Source of the DNA: Planotetraspora mira
GTDB lineage: Bacteria; Actinomycetota; Actinomycetes; Streptosporangiales; Streptosporangiaceae
NCBI RefSeq assembly: GCF_016863275.1
Contig: NZ_BOOO01000013.1
Coordinates: 186,001-250,000 of the forward strand
Length of the DNA: 64,000 nt
Direction: 5' to 3'
Below are positions 26,362 through 63,966 of the stretch, piece after piece (the stretch's first letter is position 1; each line of letters opens with the position of its first letter). Made by a program: the position numbers and the translations under genes. The notes beneath the pieces are model-generated. The model did not search any database. It was not told the origin of the DNA and saw only the letters and a list, made by a program, of their open reading frames with translations.

Positions 26362-26392
26362 GAGGCCAGAATAGAGGGGTCAGGCCTTAGGC

Positions 26393-26454
26393 GTGGCAGA
26401 TCTGCCGCTACCTTCGTGGCAGATCTGCCGCATAGAGTGTGGCAGATCTGCCGC
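26393..26454. repeat. Three perfect palindromes GGCAGATCTGCC at 23-bp spacing
   Basis: The 16-mer GTGGCAGATCTGCCGC occurs at 26393-26408, 26416-26431 and 26439-26454, each start exactly 23 bp after the last. The 12-bp core is a perfect palindrome. They stand directly upstream of the DUF4143 ATPase start. Identical copies at fixed pitch suggest cooperative binding by one dimeric protein, possibly the ATPase itself through its winged-helix part. The rest of the 26455-26596 gap shows nothing recognisable. Confidence 0.85.
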
Positions 26455-26596
26455 ATAGGTGTACCGAGCCGGTAAGGCCTCTAGTCCGGCCCGGTGACGC
26501 GCGGGGTCTGCGACGTCACGGCTGGACCGGCATCGCCGGGTGGCCGGACCGCATCGCCGCCGCAGGTCGCGAGGCCTGATGCGACTCGGCGGGCGA

Positions 26597-40550: not shown

Positions 40551-41725
40551 CCGCGCTCGCCACCCGGGAACGGTCGCCGCGGCTGCTGCAGTACATCTCG
40601 TTCGTCAGCACCCTCGACCGGTTCTCGATGCCCCCGATGCTGATCGCGATGGCCCGTGATCTCGGGGCGCCCCTGTCGGCGGTGGTCAACGCGGCCGGCG
40701 TCTACTTCCTGCTGTACGGGCTCATGCAACCGCTGTGGGGCATGGTCTCCGACCGTCTGGGCCTGGTCAGGACCATGCGGATCGCGCTGCTGCTCGCGGC
40801 CGTCTGCTCGACGGCCGCTGCCTTCACCGAGTCGGCGCTCAGTCTCGGCGTGGCCAGGGGACTGGCGGGAGCGTGCTTCAGCGCCGCGGTCCCCGCGAGC
40901 CTGATCTACATCGGCGACACGGTCCCCGCCCACCGGCGGCAGCGGGAGGTCACCGGCCTCATGACGGGCGTGGCGCTGGGCACGGCGATCGCCTCGACGG
41001 GCGCGGGGGCGCTGGCCCAGTTCGCGAGCTGGCGGATCGCGTTCGTCCTGACCGGGGTCATCTCGCTGCTGCTCGTGTTCGCGCTCGGACGGCTTCCGCG
41101 ACCGGCGCTCGTCCGGGCGCACGCCGGCCTGCTCTCCCCGCTGGTCGCCGTCGCCCGCTCCGGGCCCACGCGGCTCGTGCTGGTCCTGGCCTTCATCGAG
41201 GGAGCCGTCCTGCTCGGTTCGCTGACGTTGCTCCCCCCGGCCGTCGAGGCCGCGGGAGTGAGCGCTTCCGTCGCCGGTGCCGTCACCGCCGTGTACGGTG
41301 TTGCCGTACTGGGGTTCGCCCGTGTGGTCGGTGTGTTGTCGCGCCGCACGCACGCGTCCCGGCTCATCGCACTCGGAGCGCTCGCCGCCGCGGCCGCATG
41401 CGGGCTGACCGCCCTGTCCCGCTCGCCGGGCATGGCACTGGTCGCCGCGGCTCTACTCGGCCTCGCCTGGGCCTCGATGCACTCGTCGTTGCAGACCTGG
41501 GCGACCGAGGTGTTGCCGGAGGCTCGTGCGACGGTCGTGTCGGCCTTCGCCGGGGCGCTGTTCCTCGGCAGTGCCGTCGCCGCGGTGCTCGTCGGGGGCC
41601 TCGCGGAGAGCCACAGGTACACGGAGATCTTCGGCCTGGCGGCGGCTCTCGCCGTACCGCTCGGCCTGTTCGCCACGCTGGGACGCAAGCGATGGATCCG
41701 ACCTGAAGGAGAACCCGGTCGATGA
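40547..41725 (+). CDS. MFS transporter
   Basis: Membrane carrier of 392 residues with about 12 hydrophobic segments. The loop motif WGMVSDRLGLVRTM lies between segments 2 and 3. It is translationally coupled on both sides (ATGA with the binding-like protein upstream and ATGA with the LacI gene downstream). Its place suggests uptake or efflux of the substrate or a pathway product under LacI control; direction is not known. Confidence 0.87.
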   Translation: MTALATRERSPRLLQYISFVSTLDRFSMPPMLIAMARDLGAPLSAVVNAAGVYFLLYGLMQPLWGMVSDRLGLVRTMRIALLLAAVCSTAAAFTESALSLGVARGLAGACFSAAVPASLIYIGDTVPAHRRQREVTGLMTGVALGTAIASTGAGALAQFASWRIAFVLTGVISLLLVFALGRLPRPALVRAHAGLLSPLVAVARSGPTRLVLVLAFIEGAVLLGSLTLLPPAVEAAGVSASVAGAVTAVYGVAVLGFARVVGVLSRRTHASRLIALGALAAAAACGLTALSRSPGMALVAAALLGLAWASMHSSLQTWATEVLPEARATVVSAFAGALFLGSAVAAVLVGGLAESHRYTEIFGLAAALAVPLGLFATLGRKRWIRPEGEPGR

Positions 41726-42801
41726 GACCCAACCAGCCTTCGTTAACCCCTGCCGGGGAGGTCAAGCGGGCTCAGCCTCCCACGCTCCGGGACGTCGCCG
41801 AGGCGGCGGGAGTGCACGCCGCGACCGCCTCACGTGCCCTGAACCCGAGCACGCGGCGGCTCGTCAGCGCGGAGACGGCCAGGCGGGTGATCAAGGCGGC
41901 CAAGACGCTCGGCTACCAGCCCAACCCCATCGCGCGGAGCCTGAAGACCGCCAAGTCGAGCACGGTCGGGCTGGTCATCCCCGACCTGACCAACCCGCTG
42001 TTCCCGCCGATCGTCCGGGGGATCGAGGACGTCCTCGAGGCCGAGGGCTTCAGCGCCTGGATCGTCAACACCGACAACGATCCCGAGCGTGAGCGCGTCC
42101 GCATCGACTCCCTGCGCTCCCGTCAGGTCGAGGGCCTCATCATCGCCACCGCACGGGTCGACCACCCCTTCCTCGAGGCGCTGCACGAGCAGGGCGTCAA
42201 GATGGTGCTCGTCAACCGGCGGGTGGAGAACCTCGAGGTCCCGTATGTGACGGCCGACGACGCGACCGGCATCGCGCTCGCCGTACGGCATCTGGCGGAT
42301 CTCGGGCACAGGCGGATCGCCCATCTGGCCGGCCCGCAGGGCACCTCCACGGGTGTCGTGAGGTCGAGGGCGTTCCGGCACGCCATCCGTGACCACGGAC
42401 TGGAGGACGATCCGTCCCTCATCGTCGAATGCGCCCGCTGGAACGAGGCCGACGGGGCCACCGCGATGCGCGAACTGCTCGACAAGGACGACCGGTTCAC
42501 GGCCGTCGTCGCCGGCAACGACCTGATCGCGCTCGGCTGCTATGACGTGTTCGCCGAGCGGGGCATCTCCTGCCCGGACGAGATGAGCGTGGTCGGCTTC
42601 AACGACATGCCCTTCATCGACAAGCTGCGCCCGCCGCTGACGACGGTGGGGGTGCCGCACCACGACATCGGCGCCGAGGCCGCACGCATGTTGCTCGACT
42701 GCATCGAGGAGCCTGAGAGGCGTCCGAGGTCGCTTCTCCTCCCCGTGACGATGGTCGTCCGCGACTCCACCACCCACCCCCGCCCCCTCCCTTCCCCGTG
42801 A
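41722..42801 (+). CDS. LacI-family transcriptional regulator
   Basis: The protein has 359 residues. The N-terminal helix-turn-helix and hinge are at about residues 20-78 (LRDVAEAAGVHAATASRALN, then LGYQPNPIARSLKTAKSSTV) and are followed by a full periplasmic-binding-like effector domain. It is the third gene of the autoregulated unit starting behind the box at 39557. CG-centred palindromes of one kind lie before four promoters of the locus (31698, 32889, 39477, 39557), making it the probable repressor of the whole catabolic and transport set. Its stop codon is itself the first TGA of the 53-bp repeat cluster A. Confidence 0.92.
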   Translation: MRPNQPSLTPAGEVKRAQPPTLRDVAEAAGVHAATASRALNPSTRRLVSAETARRVIKAAKTLGYQPNPIARSLKTAKSSTVGLVIPDLTNPLFPPIVRGIEDVLEAEGFSAWIVNTDNDPERERVRIDSLRSRQVEGLIIATARVDHPFLEALHEQGVKMVLVNRRVENLEVPYVTADDATGIALAVRHLADLGHRRIAHLAGPQGTSTGVVRSRAFRHAIRDHGLEDDPSLIVECARWNEADGATAMRELLDKDDRFTAVVAGNDLIALGCYDVFAERGISCPDEMSVVGFNDMPFIDKLRPPLTTVGVPHHDIGAEAARMLLDCIEEPERRPRSLLLPVTMVVRDSTTHPRPLPSP

Positions 42802-43020
42802 TCATGCACACCTTCGTGAACGTGGGCTCTGACGTGCCCATATCCCGCGCGTGATCATGCACACTTTCGGCCGCATCACCTCTGACCTGGGCGCATCCTG
42901 TGCGTGATCATGCACGGATTCGTGTGCGGCGGCGCTGACCTGGGTGTGCGTCGCGCGTGATCATGCGTGGATTCGCGGAGGAGGCCGCTCGCCTGCGGAT
43001 CCTTCTTTCGTGATCATGCA
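42799..43020 (+). repeat. 53-bp repeat cluster A (five cores, forward)
   Basis: The core TGATCATGCA begins at 42799, 42852, 42905, 42958 (last base G) and 43011, exactly 53 bp apart each time. Between cores, TTCG(T)G a few bases after the core and TGACCTGG around 30 bases after it are partly kept while the rest varies. Being not a multiple of three, the period rules out a coding repeat. The first core overlaps the lacI stop codon. The following stretch 43021-43175 has no repeat; it is AT-richer and probably holds the promoter of the GNAT gene. Confidence 0.9.
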
Positions 43021-43175: not shown

Positions 43176-43946
43176 ATGGGTGACATCGGTGTGGACGGCC
43201 TGGCCGATGGAGCGGCGAAGGCGCTCCTGCTGGCCTTCGATCAGTTGCTCACGGCAGGCTGGGGGGTGGACAGCCCGCGAGGGGAGCACGGCACCCGTCT
43301 GATCACCTCCGGCATTCCGCTGCCCCATCTGAACGGCGTGTTCACTGAGAGCCGCGACCCCGATGTCGACGAGGTGGCCGAGTTCGCCCACCGGATGACG
43401 GCGAGTGCCGTCCCGTGGAGCATCCAGGTGCGCGGCGAGCCCGCTCCGGAGCTCGTCGAGGTGGCCGCGCGTTTCGGGCTCACCCACCGCATGCGCCTTC
43501 CGCTCATGACGATGCCGGCGACACCGGTGGCGCTCACTTCGGGGGACCACTCGATCCGGACGGTCGACGGGAAGGATCACGAGATCTACCGTGACTCTCT
43601 CGCCGCCGGTTTCGAGGCTCCCGTGGACATCATGGCGACGCTGGCCCAGCCGGAGATCCTGGACATGCCGGGCGCGACCGCCTATCTCGTCGAAGCAGAC
43701 GGAGAACCGGTCTCAACGGGATTCGGCATCCTCGTGGGGGACCACGTCGGGGTGTTCAACGTCTCGACCCCGCCGCGCCACCGGCGCCGCGGGTACGGCA
43801 GGGCCGCCACCGAGGTGGTCATGCGGGACGGATTCGCCGCCGGCGCGCGTGTGGCGTTCCTCCAGGCCAGTTCGGACGGCCAGCCCCTCTACGAACTGCT
43901 CGGCTTCCGCGTCGTCGAGACGTGGACCTACTTCGAGCACGGCTGA
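43176..43946 (+). CDS. GNAT-family N-acetyltransferase
   Basis: The protein has about 256 residues. The C-terminal half has the acetyl-CoA loop PPRHRRRGYGRAATEVVM (about 190-207) and the later strand VAFLQASSDGQPLYELLGFR typical of GNAT enzymes. The N-terminal half is less conserved and may be a divergent second GNAT-like fold. ATG 43176 was chosen; the frame is open from a GTG at 43089, but that extra part looks like promoter DNA. Substrate unknown. The gene is alone, bracketed by repeat cluster A in forward and cluster B in reverse orientation. Confidence 0.8.
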   Translation: MGDIGVDGLADGAAKALLLAFDQLLTAGWGVDSPRGEHGTRLITSGIPLPHLNGVFTESRDPDVDEVAEFAHRMTASAVPWSIQVRGEPAPELVEVAARFGLTHRMRLPLMTMPATPVALTSGDHSIRTVDGKDHEIYRDSLAAGFEAPVDIMATLAQPEILDMPGATAYLVEADGEPVSTGFGILVGDHVGVFNVSTPPRHRRRGYGRAATEVVMRDGFAAGARVAFLQASSDGQPLYELLGFRVVETWTYFEHG

Positions 43947-44049: not shown

Positions 44050-44218
44050 TGCATGATCACGCATGCCGTACGGCCAGGCCAGGATGGGTTTTCACGAAGG
44101 TGCGCATGATCACGCAGGGGATGCGGCCAGGTCGGGATGGGTTTTCACGAAGGTGTGCATGATCACGCCCGGGGTGTGGGCAGGTCAGGGGGGATGCACC
44201 CGAATCTGTGCATGATCA
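44050..44218 (-). repeat. 53-bp repeat cluster B (four cores, reverse)
   Basis: The reverse-complement core TGCATGATCA begins at 44050, 44103 (first base C), 44156 and 44209, again exactly 53 bp apart. In the reverse reading each core is followed by the same TTCGTGA and CCTGGCC-like elements as cluster A. The cluster fills most of the 401-bp gap between the GNAT and epimerase genes. The rest (43947-44049) shows nothing recognisable, and 44219-44347 holds the LacI-type box and the epimerase leader. Confidence 0.9.
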
Positions 44219-63477: not shown

Positions 63478-63594
63478 GACGTGGCCCCCGGATTCCGCGT
63501 CCGCTGAGGGAGCAATACCCCTCGAATGGTCCTCCCACGAGCAGATACCCCACGACCTGCCCAAACCCCCCAACCCACCCCAAAACCCCAGCCG

Positions 63595-63966
63595 TGATCA
63601 TGCGCAGGTTCGGCATCATGCCCCTCGACCAGCCCTGACGTCGGGCGTGATCATGCACAGGTTCGTGGATACGCGTGCTGACCAGCCCTGATGCCGGGCG
63701 TGATCATGCACGGATTCGTAAAGGTGCGGGCTGACCAGCGCGGACGGAGTTCGTGATCATGCACGGATTCGTGAAGATGCGCGCCGACCAGCATGGACGG
63801 TGTTCCCGATCATGCAATATCTCGGGCCGGACGTGCCGGTTGACGTGCGGGGTGGGCGATCGAGGCGTGGAATGCGGCACGCCGGGATGGTGCCGCCCCC
63901 TCGTGCATGATCACGACGCTCGTTCGAGCAGGTGAGAGGGCGTGCCGCCGAATTCGTGCATGGTCA
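63595..63966. repeat. 53-bp repeat cluster C (five forward, then two reverse cores)
   Basis: Forward cores TGATCATGCA begin at 63595 (last base G), 63648, 63701, 63754 and 63807 (first base C), all 53 bp apart. The first four units also share TTCGT about three bases after CAC and GACCAGC about 30 bases after the core. After a 97-bp step, reverse cores begin at 63904 and 63957 (TGCATGGTCA), again 53 bp apart. The cluster may run past the window end. No gene is seen between 63478 and 64000. Confidence 0.9.

Follow-up and report, generated by a model that had tools for sequence, protein, structure and literature searches.

Facing 53-bp core arrays behind gene ends in Planotetraspora, with an AbiEi/Vsr-type nuclease as their candidate reader

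The stretch of DNA analysed here (the window) comprises 64,000 nucleotides of the actinomycete Planotetraspora mira (contig NZ_BOOO01000013.1, positions 186,001 to 250,000; contig C13 below) and contains a family of arrays in which a short core, TGATCATGCA, recurs every 53 bp. Sixteen cores are present, 11 exact and 5 with a single mismatch, and the pitch is 53 bp inside every array; a preliminary description had reported this number of cores, in three places and with this pitch, and our recount bears it out. When up to two mismatches are allowed, TGATCATGCA occurs 75 times in the window vs 26.4 times (s.d. 5.8) in shuffled sequence. Array A (42799..43020, forward strand, pitch 53) holds five cores, at 42799, 42852, 42905, 42958 and 43011, and the TGA of the first is the stop codon of the gene at 41722-42801. 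That gene itself contains a weak core, TGACGATGG, at 42746, one 53-bp step before the first. Array B (44050..44218, reverse strand, pitch 53), with four cores running from 44218, 44165, 44112 and 44059, faces Array A across one gene, a GNAT acetyltransferase-type gene (43191..43946, forward strand) that the two enclose. Array C (63595..63816, forward strand, pitch 53; five cores at 63595, 63648, 63701, 63754 and 63807) is preceded by a C-rich stretch at about 63542-63592 and faces Array C' (63904..63966, reverse strand), whose two window cores run from 63913 and 63966. Array C' continues past the window end on the same contig, with further cores at 64019 and 64072, and behind it ends a leftward gene at 64137-64967 (both in window numbering). 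The three places had been taken as separate clusters; they are in fact two facing pairs, of which clusters 1 and 2 flank the single GNAT gene.

The arrays extend over the whole genome. The pair pattern TGATCATGC-N43/44-TGATCATGC has 657 exact matches in the P. mira genome (9.03 Mb), as compared with 0 for the reversed control. For the unit analysis we used 179 arrays, taken from parts of the P. mira contigs C1 and C13 and, mixed with them, 80 of the at least 91 loci from a scan of GTDB r220; these 80 had been fetched for having four exact cores in a row. Among 576 spacings, 541 are 53 bp, 18 are 52 bp and 6 are 54 bp, and 168 of the 179 arrays have three to five cores. The approximate unit consensus is CGTGATCATGC-RC-RGRTTCG-N13-YGACCTGS-N4-AC-N6, with conserved blocks TTCG (positions 14-17) and YGACCTG (31-37); of the semi-conserved motifs TTCGTG and TGACC(A/T)G proposed earlier, TTCG and YGACCTG are thus kept, but the final two letters of TTCGTG are not. 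The core is nearly invariant in the detected units, a conservation that is partly built into the set because the units were found by their cores. The spacers of different loci are unrelated, with a mean identity of 0.35 between units and 0.42 between neighbours, and the strongest dependences between columns are those of near-neighbour positions.

Genes were called with a crude codon-usage script (except at six plasmid records described below), and the arrays lie right behind the ends of called genes. The upstream gene is on the array's own strand in 122 of the 172 arrays with a callable upstream gene, at a median of 19 bp to the first core, and in 24 of these 122 the TGA of the core doubles as the stop codon; for the remaining 50 arrays the median distance is 96 bp. 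Perfect cores number 263 in arrays or intergenic space and 2 alone inside called genes, with 86-90% of the tiles called coding. In the last 20 bases before an array the fraction of C is about 0.50 and that of G 0.20-0.23, compared with 0.36 and 0.35 at 3′ ends without arrays. Arrays on opposite strands less than 450 bp apart face each other in 68 of 68 cases (77 of 77 in a larger duplicate-free set), most commonly across a gap of 15 bp, and no period near 10.5 bp was seen in these gaps besides the 15-bp peak. Convergent gene pairs are enriched at such paired loci (30/63 vs 145/752, p = 1e-6) and divergent ones depleted (5/63 vs 170/752, p = 0.006). Of 34 inner single arrays, 25 run in the same direction as the upstream gene and 9 are discordant (p = 0.009). 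At distances of 450-2000 bp we found 9 facing pairs, 1 diverging and 1 in the same direction, three of the nine being the A/B locus of the window in as many species. Six loci with such facing pairs were examined, and five of them have a single called gene between the arrays. A second GNAT-type gene between facing arrays is present in another species (L089:301-1068). Two hairpin arrangements were tried and rejected: flank complementarity, expected if the arrays lay within a terminator hairpin, was the same within loci (8.4) as for shuffled loci (8.1; 66 loci), and only 11% of 53 outer unit pairs exceeded 0.7 identity, the outermost units alone being sometimes alike, so that facing arrays do not form a single giant hairpin.

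Comparison with relatives shows that selection keeps the cores while the spacers drift, at least among close relatives. Array loci are common to P. mira and P. silvatica at 6 of 6 mapped loci, P. kaengkrachanensis at 14 of 16 (one more partly) and P. thailandica at 5 of 6. When orthologous units are located through their cores, the core has diverged by 0.7% for P. silvatica (27 units) and 1.0% for P. kaengkrachanensis (31 units), against spacer divergences of 16-22% and 30-31%, which are underestimates because only unit pairs with a spacer identity of at least 0.55 were kept; the tag beside the core (positions 9-13) diverges by 17-24% in these units. In an unconditioned comparison no core was demanded in the partner, and units with gaps or a spacer identity below 0.5 were dropped. 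The core then diverges by 0.8% and the spacer by 18% for P. silvatica (25 of 29 units), by 3.1% and 34% for P. kaengkrachanensis (36 of 71), and by 0% and 38% between P. kaengkrachanensis and P. thailandica (6 of 17). A further relative, G002, which has few arrays and might have lost their reader, retains at least three cores at 2 of 11 mapped loci, one or two at 4 and none at 5; five of its core-found units have 2% core vs 15-25% spacer divergence, and it lacks 159 bp corresponding to three units of Array A (by BLAST coordinates). Array length thus varies between species at a constant pitch. In place of one P. mira facing pair (C1:60118-60490), genomes G002, G003 and G001 have 0.7-0.9 kb of different sequence that contains no array; gain or loss of arrays can accompany a change in the neighbouring sequence.

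These data agree with the earlier suggestion that a fixed pitch with drifting spacers reflects selection and not recent duplication, since the core is held against drift at orthologous loci and slippage-like spacers were not seen. Confinement to one strain, raised there as a possibility, did not hold, with arrays in all five Planotetraspora genomes examined. Free variation of the pitch, also raised there, was likewise not seen among close relatives; a distant carrier also uses 37-38 bp. Although 53 bp is close to five helical turns, the helical phasing put forward at that time is not general, given the lack of a ~10.5-bp gap period and the other pitch in the distant carrier.

The letters adjoining the core differ from species to species. 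In P. thailandica (147 units) position 10 is G in 95% and position 12 is A in 92%, the letters elsewhere being C and mostly G, respectively, and in Planotetraspora sp. A-T 1434 position 17 is C in 95% of 22 units and G elsewhere. At five loci common to P. mira and P. thailandica, all 25 P. mira units have C at position 10 and all 13 P. thailandica units have G, and in all four unit pairs with alignable spacers this letter has changed in place. Such a coordinated change at common loci is what one would predict if the sites follow a binding protein, and the pattern of covariation favours a DNA sequence read by a protein over an RNA stem.

To which lineages the arrays extend can be seen at several levels. 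In the GTDB scan, with one genome per species, all of the listed stretches (at least 91) are from Planotetraspora. The pair pattern is present in 22 of 297 genomes of the family, strongly in five Planotetraspora genomes (153-758 pairs) and in G085 (555 pairs), which is Planotetraspora sp. A-T 1434, placed in a separate genus in the classification used; weaker matches occur in five genomes of genus g86 (1-15 each) and in eleven others (1-2 each). A profile search detected more in g86, with at least 142 matches in G209, 48 each in G238 and G143, and 34 in G216; two other g86 genomes and G013 gave none, and G028 gave 3 weak matches. The outermost core of the g86 arrays is mostly CGTGATCTTGTAGTTTGTCGCA, the YGACCTG block is retained, and several facing arrays join in a palindrome. 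More widely, the 12-mer CGTGATCATGCA is found at least once in 183 of 296 genomes of the class, nearly always in few copies; P. mira has 684, G329 288, G388 287, G535 100, G327 35, G447 29, G370 22 and G143 20, and G344, a congener of G388, has 0. Behind the core, G329, G388 and G535 each have a constant tag of their own; pitches are 32-35, 41-44 and 53-55 bp in G388 and 37-38 and 51-55 bp in G329, and two of the three G535 loci read are 51-bp palindromes. What these distant carriers share, despite their different tags and pitches, is therefore the core; a 53-bp pitch combined with the YGACCTG block was observed in no carriers outside this family. Stretches of 100-200 kb from each of three further genera of the family showed no periodic signal, and neither plasmid and phage collections (queried with Array C) nor viral contigs (searched with the core-pair pattern) gave a match. 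Five genomes of genus g31 (G106, G132, G170, G213 and G225) carry, at one place each, a near-identical 60-bp near-palindrome, TGATCATGCGGC...GCCGCATGATCA, which looks like one conserved locus unrelated to the arrays. An element GTGATCTTGC...CAAGATCATTTCAGGAC, with copies at G113:C5:82497 and 249787, may be another variant.

What might read the arrays is suggested by the genes between them. Two of seven array-enclosed genes that were scanned, in P. thailandica and the distant carrier G388, encode a protein with an AbiEi-like part and a Vsr-like nuclease (DUF559/MTES_1575) part; in the G388 protein the nuclease match is below the Pfam cut-off and the AbiEi_4 match above it. The P. kaengkrachanensis orthologue, 79% identical and located across two adjacent tiles, is likewise bracketed by arrays. 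Facing arrays thus bracket the nuclease gene in three genomes, which belong to two lineages, and these three genes are the only homologues at E 1e-3 within the 3.59 Mb searched (overlapping loci included). The structure predicted for the protein consists of an AbiEi antitoxin-like half (residues 1-184) and a nuclease half (about 190-293) that resembles Vsr and the homing endonuclease I-Bth0305I, and residues D224, E235, D237, H242 and D251 are invariant across the three sequences. By sequence, no solved structure matched the nuclease profile. A DnaA-box-like word, TTATCCACA / TGTGGATAA, occurs in perfect form within 100 bp upstream of four of nine DUF559-type genes (L076, L276, L277 and L278), and the P. 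kaengkrachanensis DUF559-type gene has a one-mismatch form.

Because the three loci had been fetched for holding arrays, a second sample was drawn from a plasmid collection, in which tblastn detected seven relatives of the nuclease (H1-H7); two further queries of this collection gave no new relatives. Facing flank repeats of 15-22 bp are present at four of the seven, H2 and H3 of Tsukamurella and H4 and H5 of Arthrobacter, as compared with 4 of 973 control genes in other genomes (p = 6e-8); the controls came from genera other than those of the seven relatives. Each gene has a different bracketing element, even H2 and H3, which belong to a single strain, and the elements are dispersed: counting the brackets, the H2 element occupies 12 places in 9 records, that of H3 19 in 8, of H4 28 in 2, of H5 7 in 1 and of H6 11 in 2. 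In six of the eight other records with the H2 element, all six copies lie at most 13 bp from, or overlap, a stop codon, three between convergent and three between tandem genes; in the remaining two records the copies overlap annotated genes. From this sequence evidence, the AbiEi/Vsr-type nuclease is the most likely candidate reader of the arrays.

Several known systems share features with the arrays. TTF-I acts on tandem Sal boxes behind rRNA genes, where orientation matters, and the arrays are similarly tandem putative protein sites past gene ends in a preferred orientation; they differ in being bacterial and in standing at hundreds of gene ends. The mycobacterial interspersed repetitive units (MIRU) are tandem intergenic repeats of ~53 bp in actinobacteria, probably with a different sequence, and in the arrays only parts of the unit are conserved. 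The candidate protein has one half with a predicted fold like that of I-Bth0305I and Vsr endonucleases and one like that of AbiEi antitoxins; it differs in combining both and in being bracketed by dispersed repeats. There is also a likeness with the REPtron, whose repetitive extragenic palindromes (REPs) are short and numerous, differ in sequence between lineages, often form inverted pairs and flank the gene of a DNA-cutting enzyme (PMC3733652). The arrays have all these features, with a different enzyme; they differ in their exact 53-bp direct pitch, in an AbiEi/Vsr-type nuclease as candidate enzyme, and in the GTAG tetranucleotide of the element end, which is absent from the unit consensus. 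A gene of the REP-associated tyrosine transposase (RAYT) type (Y1_Tnp, PF01797, which also covers IS200) is absent from 13 of 15 carriers, P. mira included; matches were found in the carriers P. thailandica (G001) and G143 and, among 11 other genomes, in G091, G162, G009 and G007. DNA uptake sequences (DUS), with a constant core, species-specific neighbouring bases and inverted pairs at gene ends, are common inside genes in the account of PMC3630211. The arrays share the constant core with a lineage dialect and the inverted pairs, but their cores are nearly absent from genes and are organised in arrays. They are thus filed under neither REPtron nor DUS.

We hold with about even confidence that the arrays are sites of a sequence-specific DNA-binding protein, in a REPtron-like arrangement with an unrelated nuclease, and that they would form a two-sided boundary at gene ends. 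In such a scheme the protein would occupy one site per 53 bp, and selection would hold the arrays just behind gene ends with the core end towards the gene. The AbiEi-type part would bind DNA and the Vsr/homing-endonuclease-type part would act as a nuclease, the protein's own gene being bracketed by arrays. It would recognise facing elements, and nicking or cutting would help to spread and standardise them, so that all sites would follow when its specificity shifts. Bound arrays at gene ends would then stop or insulate transcription from both sides.

Besides the ascertainment of the three loci and the choice of control genes, a number of observations weigh against this proposal. The nuclease gene was not found in the P. 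mira tiles searched (part of the genome), and the enclosed genes also include two GNAT genes and UbiA, P450 and MobA-like genes. Among the plasmid relatives, the bracket of H6 is imperfect, none was seen in the flanks of H1 (Nonomuraea), and H7 (Tsukamurella, L280), a hypothetical gene that is a weak nuclease relative with no Pfam match, has short GTGGGGGA-type flank repeats in the same orientation on both sides. The structural model has modest confidence (predicted local distance difference test score, pLDDT, 69), and Foldseek alone gave Vsr and I-Bth0305I type matches at E 0.6 or worse. Recent copying is not visible, because the spacers of different loci are unrelated. The unconditioned divergences between P. 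mira and P. thailandica (core 21%, spacer 37%; 7 of 30 units) and between P. mira and G002 (26% and 38%; 7 of 53 units) come from few units with changed array lengths and poor alignment, and neither support nor exclude strong selection. In G329, a sense array lies ~25 bp past a strong hairpin that follows the 5S gene of one rRNA operon (G329:C1:1084201-1085400, L271), and a second rRNA operon (L272) has the same hairpin and no array; since the array follows the hairpin at one operon and is absent at the other, this case warns that termination may be array-independent.

The boundary could also be made without the nuclease. An unrelated host protein might coat the arrays and stop RNA polymerase in one orientation, the nuclease being a bystander that uses the same sites. 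The position right after stop codons, the polarity of pairs and of inner single arrays towards the incoming polymerase, and the C-rich, G-poor leader, which would suit Rho, all fit such polar roadblock terminators; we nevertheless regard them as unlikely, given the order of hairpin and array at the G329 rRNA operons, the few loci at which G002 retains three or more cores, and the nine discordant single arrays. Ends of non-autonomous transposons or miniature inverted-repeat transposable elements (MITEs), with no host function, appear still less probable. Facing arrays do resemble terminal inverted repeats with subterminal binding sites, the wider pairs can enclose one gene, and array presence varies between species at some loci, but similarity does not run along the whole copy length, inter-locus spacers being unrelated around a nearly invariant core; close orthologues keep their cores against drift, and a target duplication was not seen in the few sites inspected that are empty or reduced.

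A role in nucleoid organisation or partition, which the preliminary description had suggested, is not supported. Hundreds of sites in facing orientation with a pitch near five helical turns could serve as nucleoid-organising or domain-boundary sites, but the arrays trail stop codons and are closely tied to transcription units, their pairs point inward and prefer convergent genes, an AbiEi/Vsr-type nuclease gene lies between arrays, the facing-array gaps are without helical phasing beyond the 15-bp peak, and distant carriers use other pitches, leaving this explanation rather improbable. Accumulation as an uptake signal (of the DUS type or the uptake signal sequence, USS, type) through biased transformation seems very improbable: a common core with a lineage-specific flank and inverted pairs at gene ends are as for DUS (PMC3630211), but DUS are common inside genes by the same account, which the two lone perfect cores in genes do not match, and fixed 53-bp arrays are unlike DUS. 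Hardly any weight is left for an RNA element whose units would form hairpins that terminate or stabilise the transcript. Among eight sequences folded (one complete array and seven pieces), most do better than shuffles (z -0.3 to -4.6), because two same-direction cores can pair, but the inner stem is without covariation, two of its pairs are lost with the P. thailandica dialect in almost every unit, and 99% of 540 units retain T at position 6, where C would pair better; an RNA stem inside the unit was rejected on the first two grounds.

At gathering thresholds, the window has no match in Rfam. At 26388-26462 the window also contains a short ~23-bp tandem repeat with the palindrome GGCAGATCTGCC. 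Among the matches listed from the open-licence literature, no paper deals with these repeats or with repeat-flanked DUF559 genes, which is weak evidence of absence.

Extending the binding-protein reading beyond Planotetraspora, we would tentatively suggest, a little short of even confidence, that actinobacterial AbiEi/Vsr-type nucleases each mark tens to hundreds of gene ends with their own inverted sign, that paralogues use different signs, and that a change in specificity rewrites the signs in place, those of Planotetraspora having grown into helically pitched 53-bp arrays. If true, this would add a second enzyme class to the few proteins that own a dispersed extragenic repeat family, and would suggest a role for a family of proteins with the domain of unknown function DUF559. 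The change of dialect at orthologous sites is a natural experiment on a DNA-binding protein and its set of sites changing together, and the arrays also bear on the question of what marks gene ends in high-GC bacteria.
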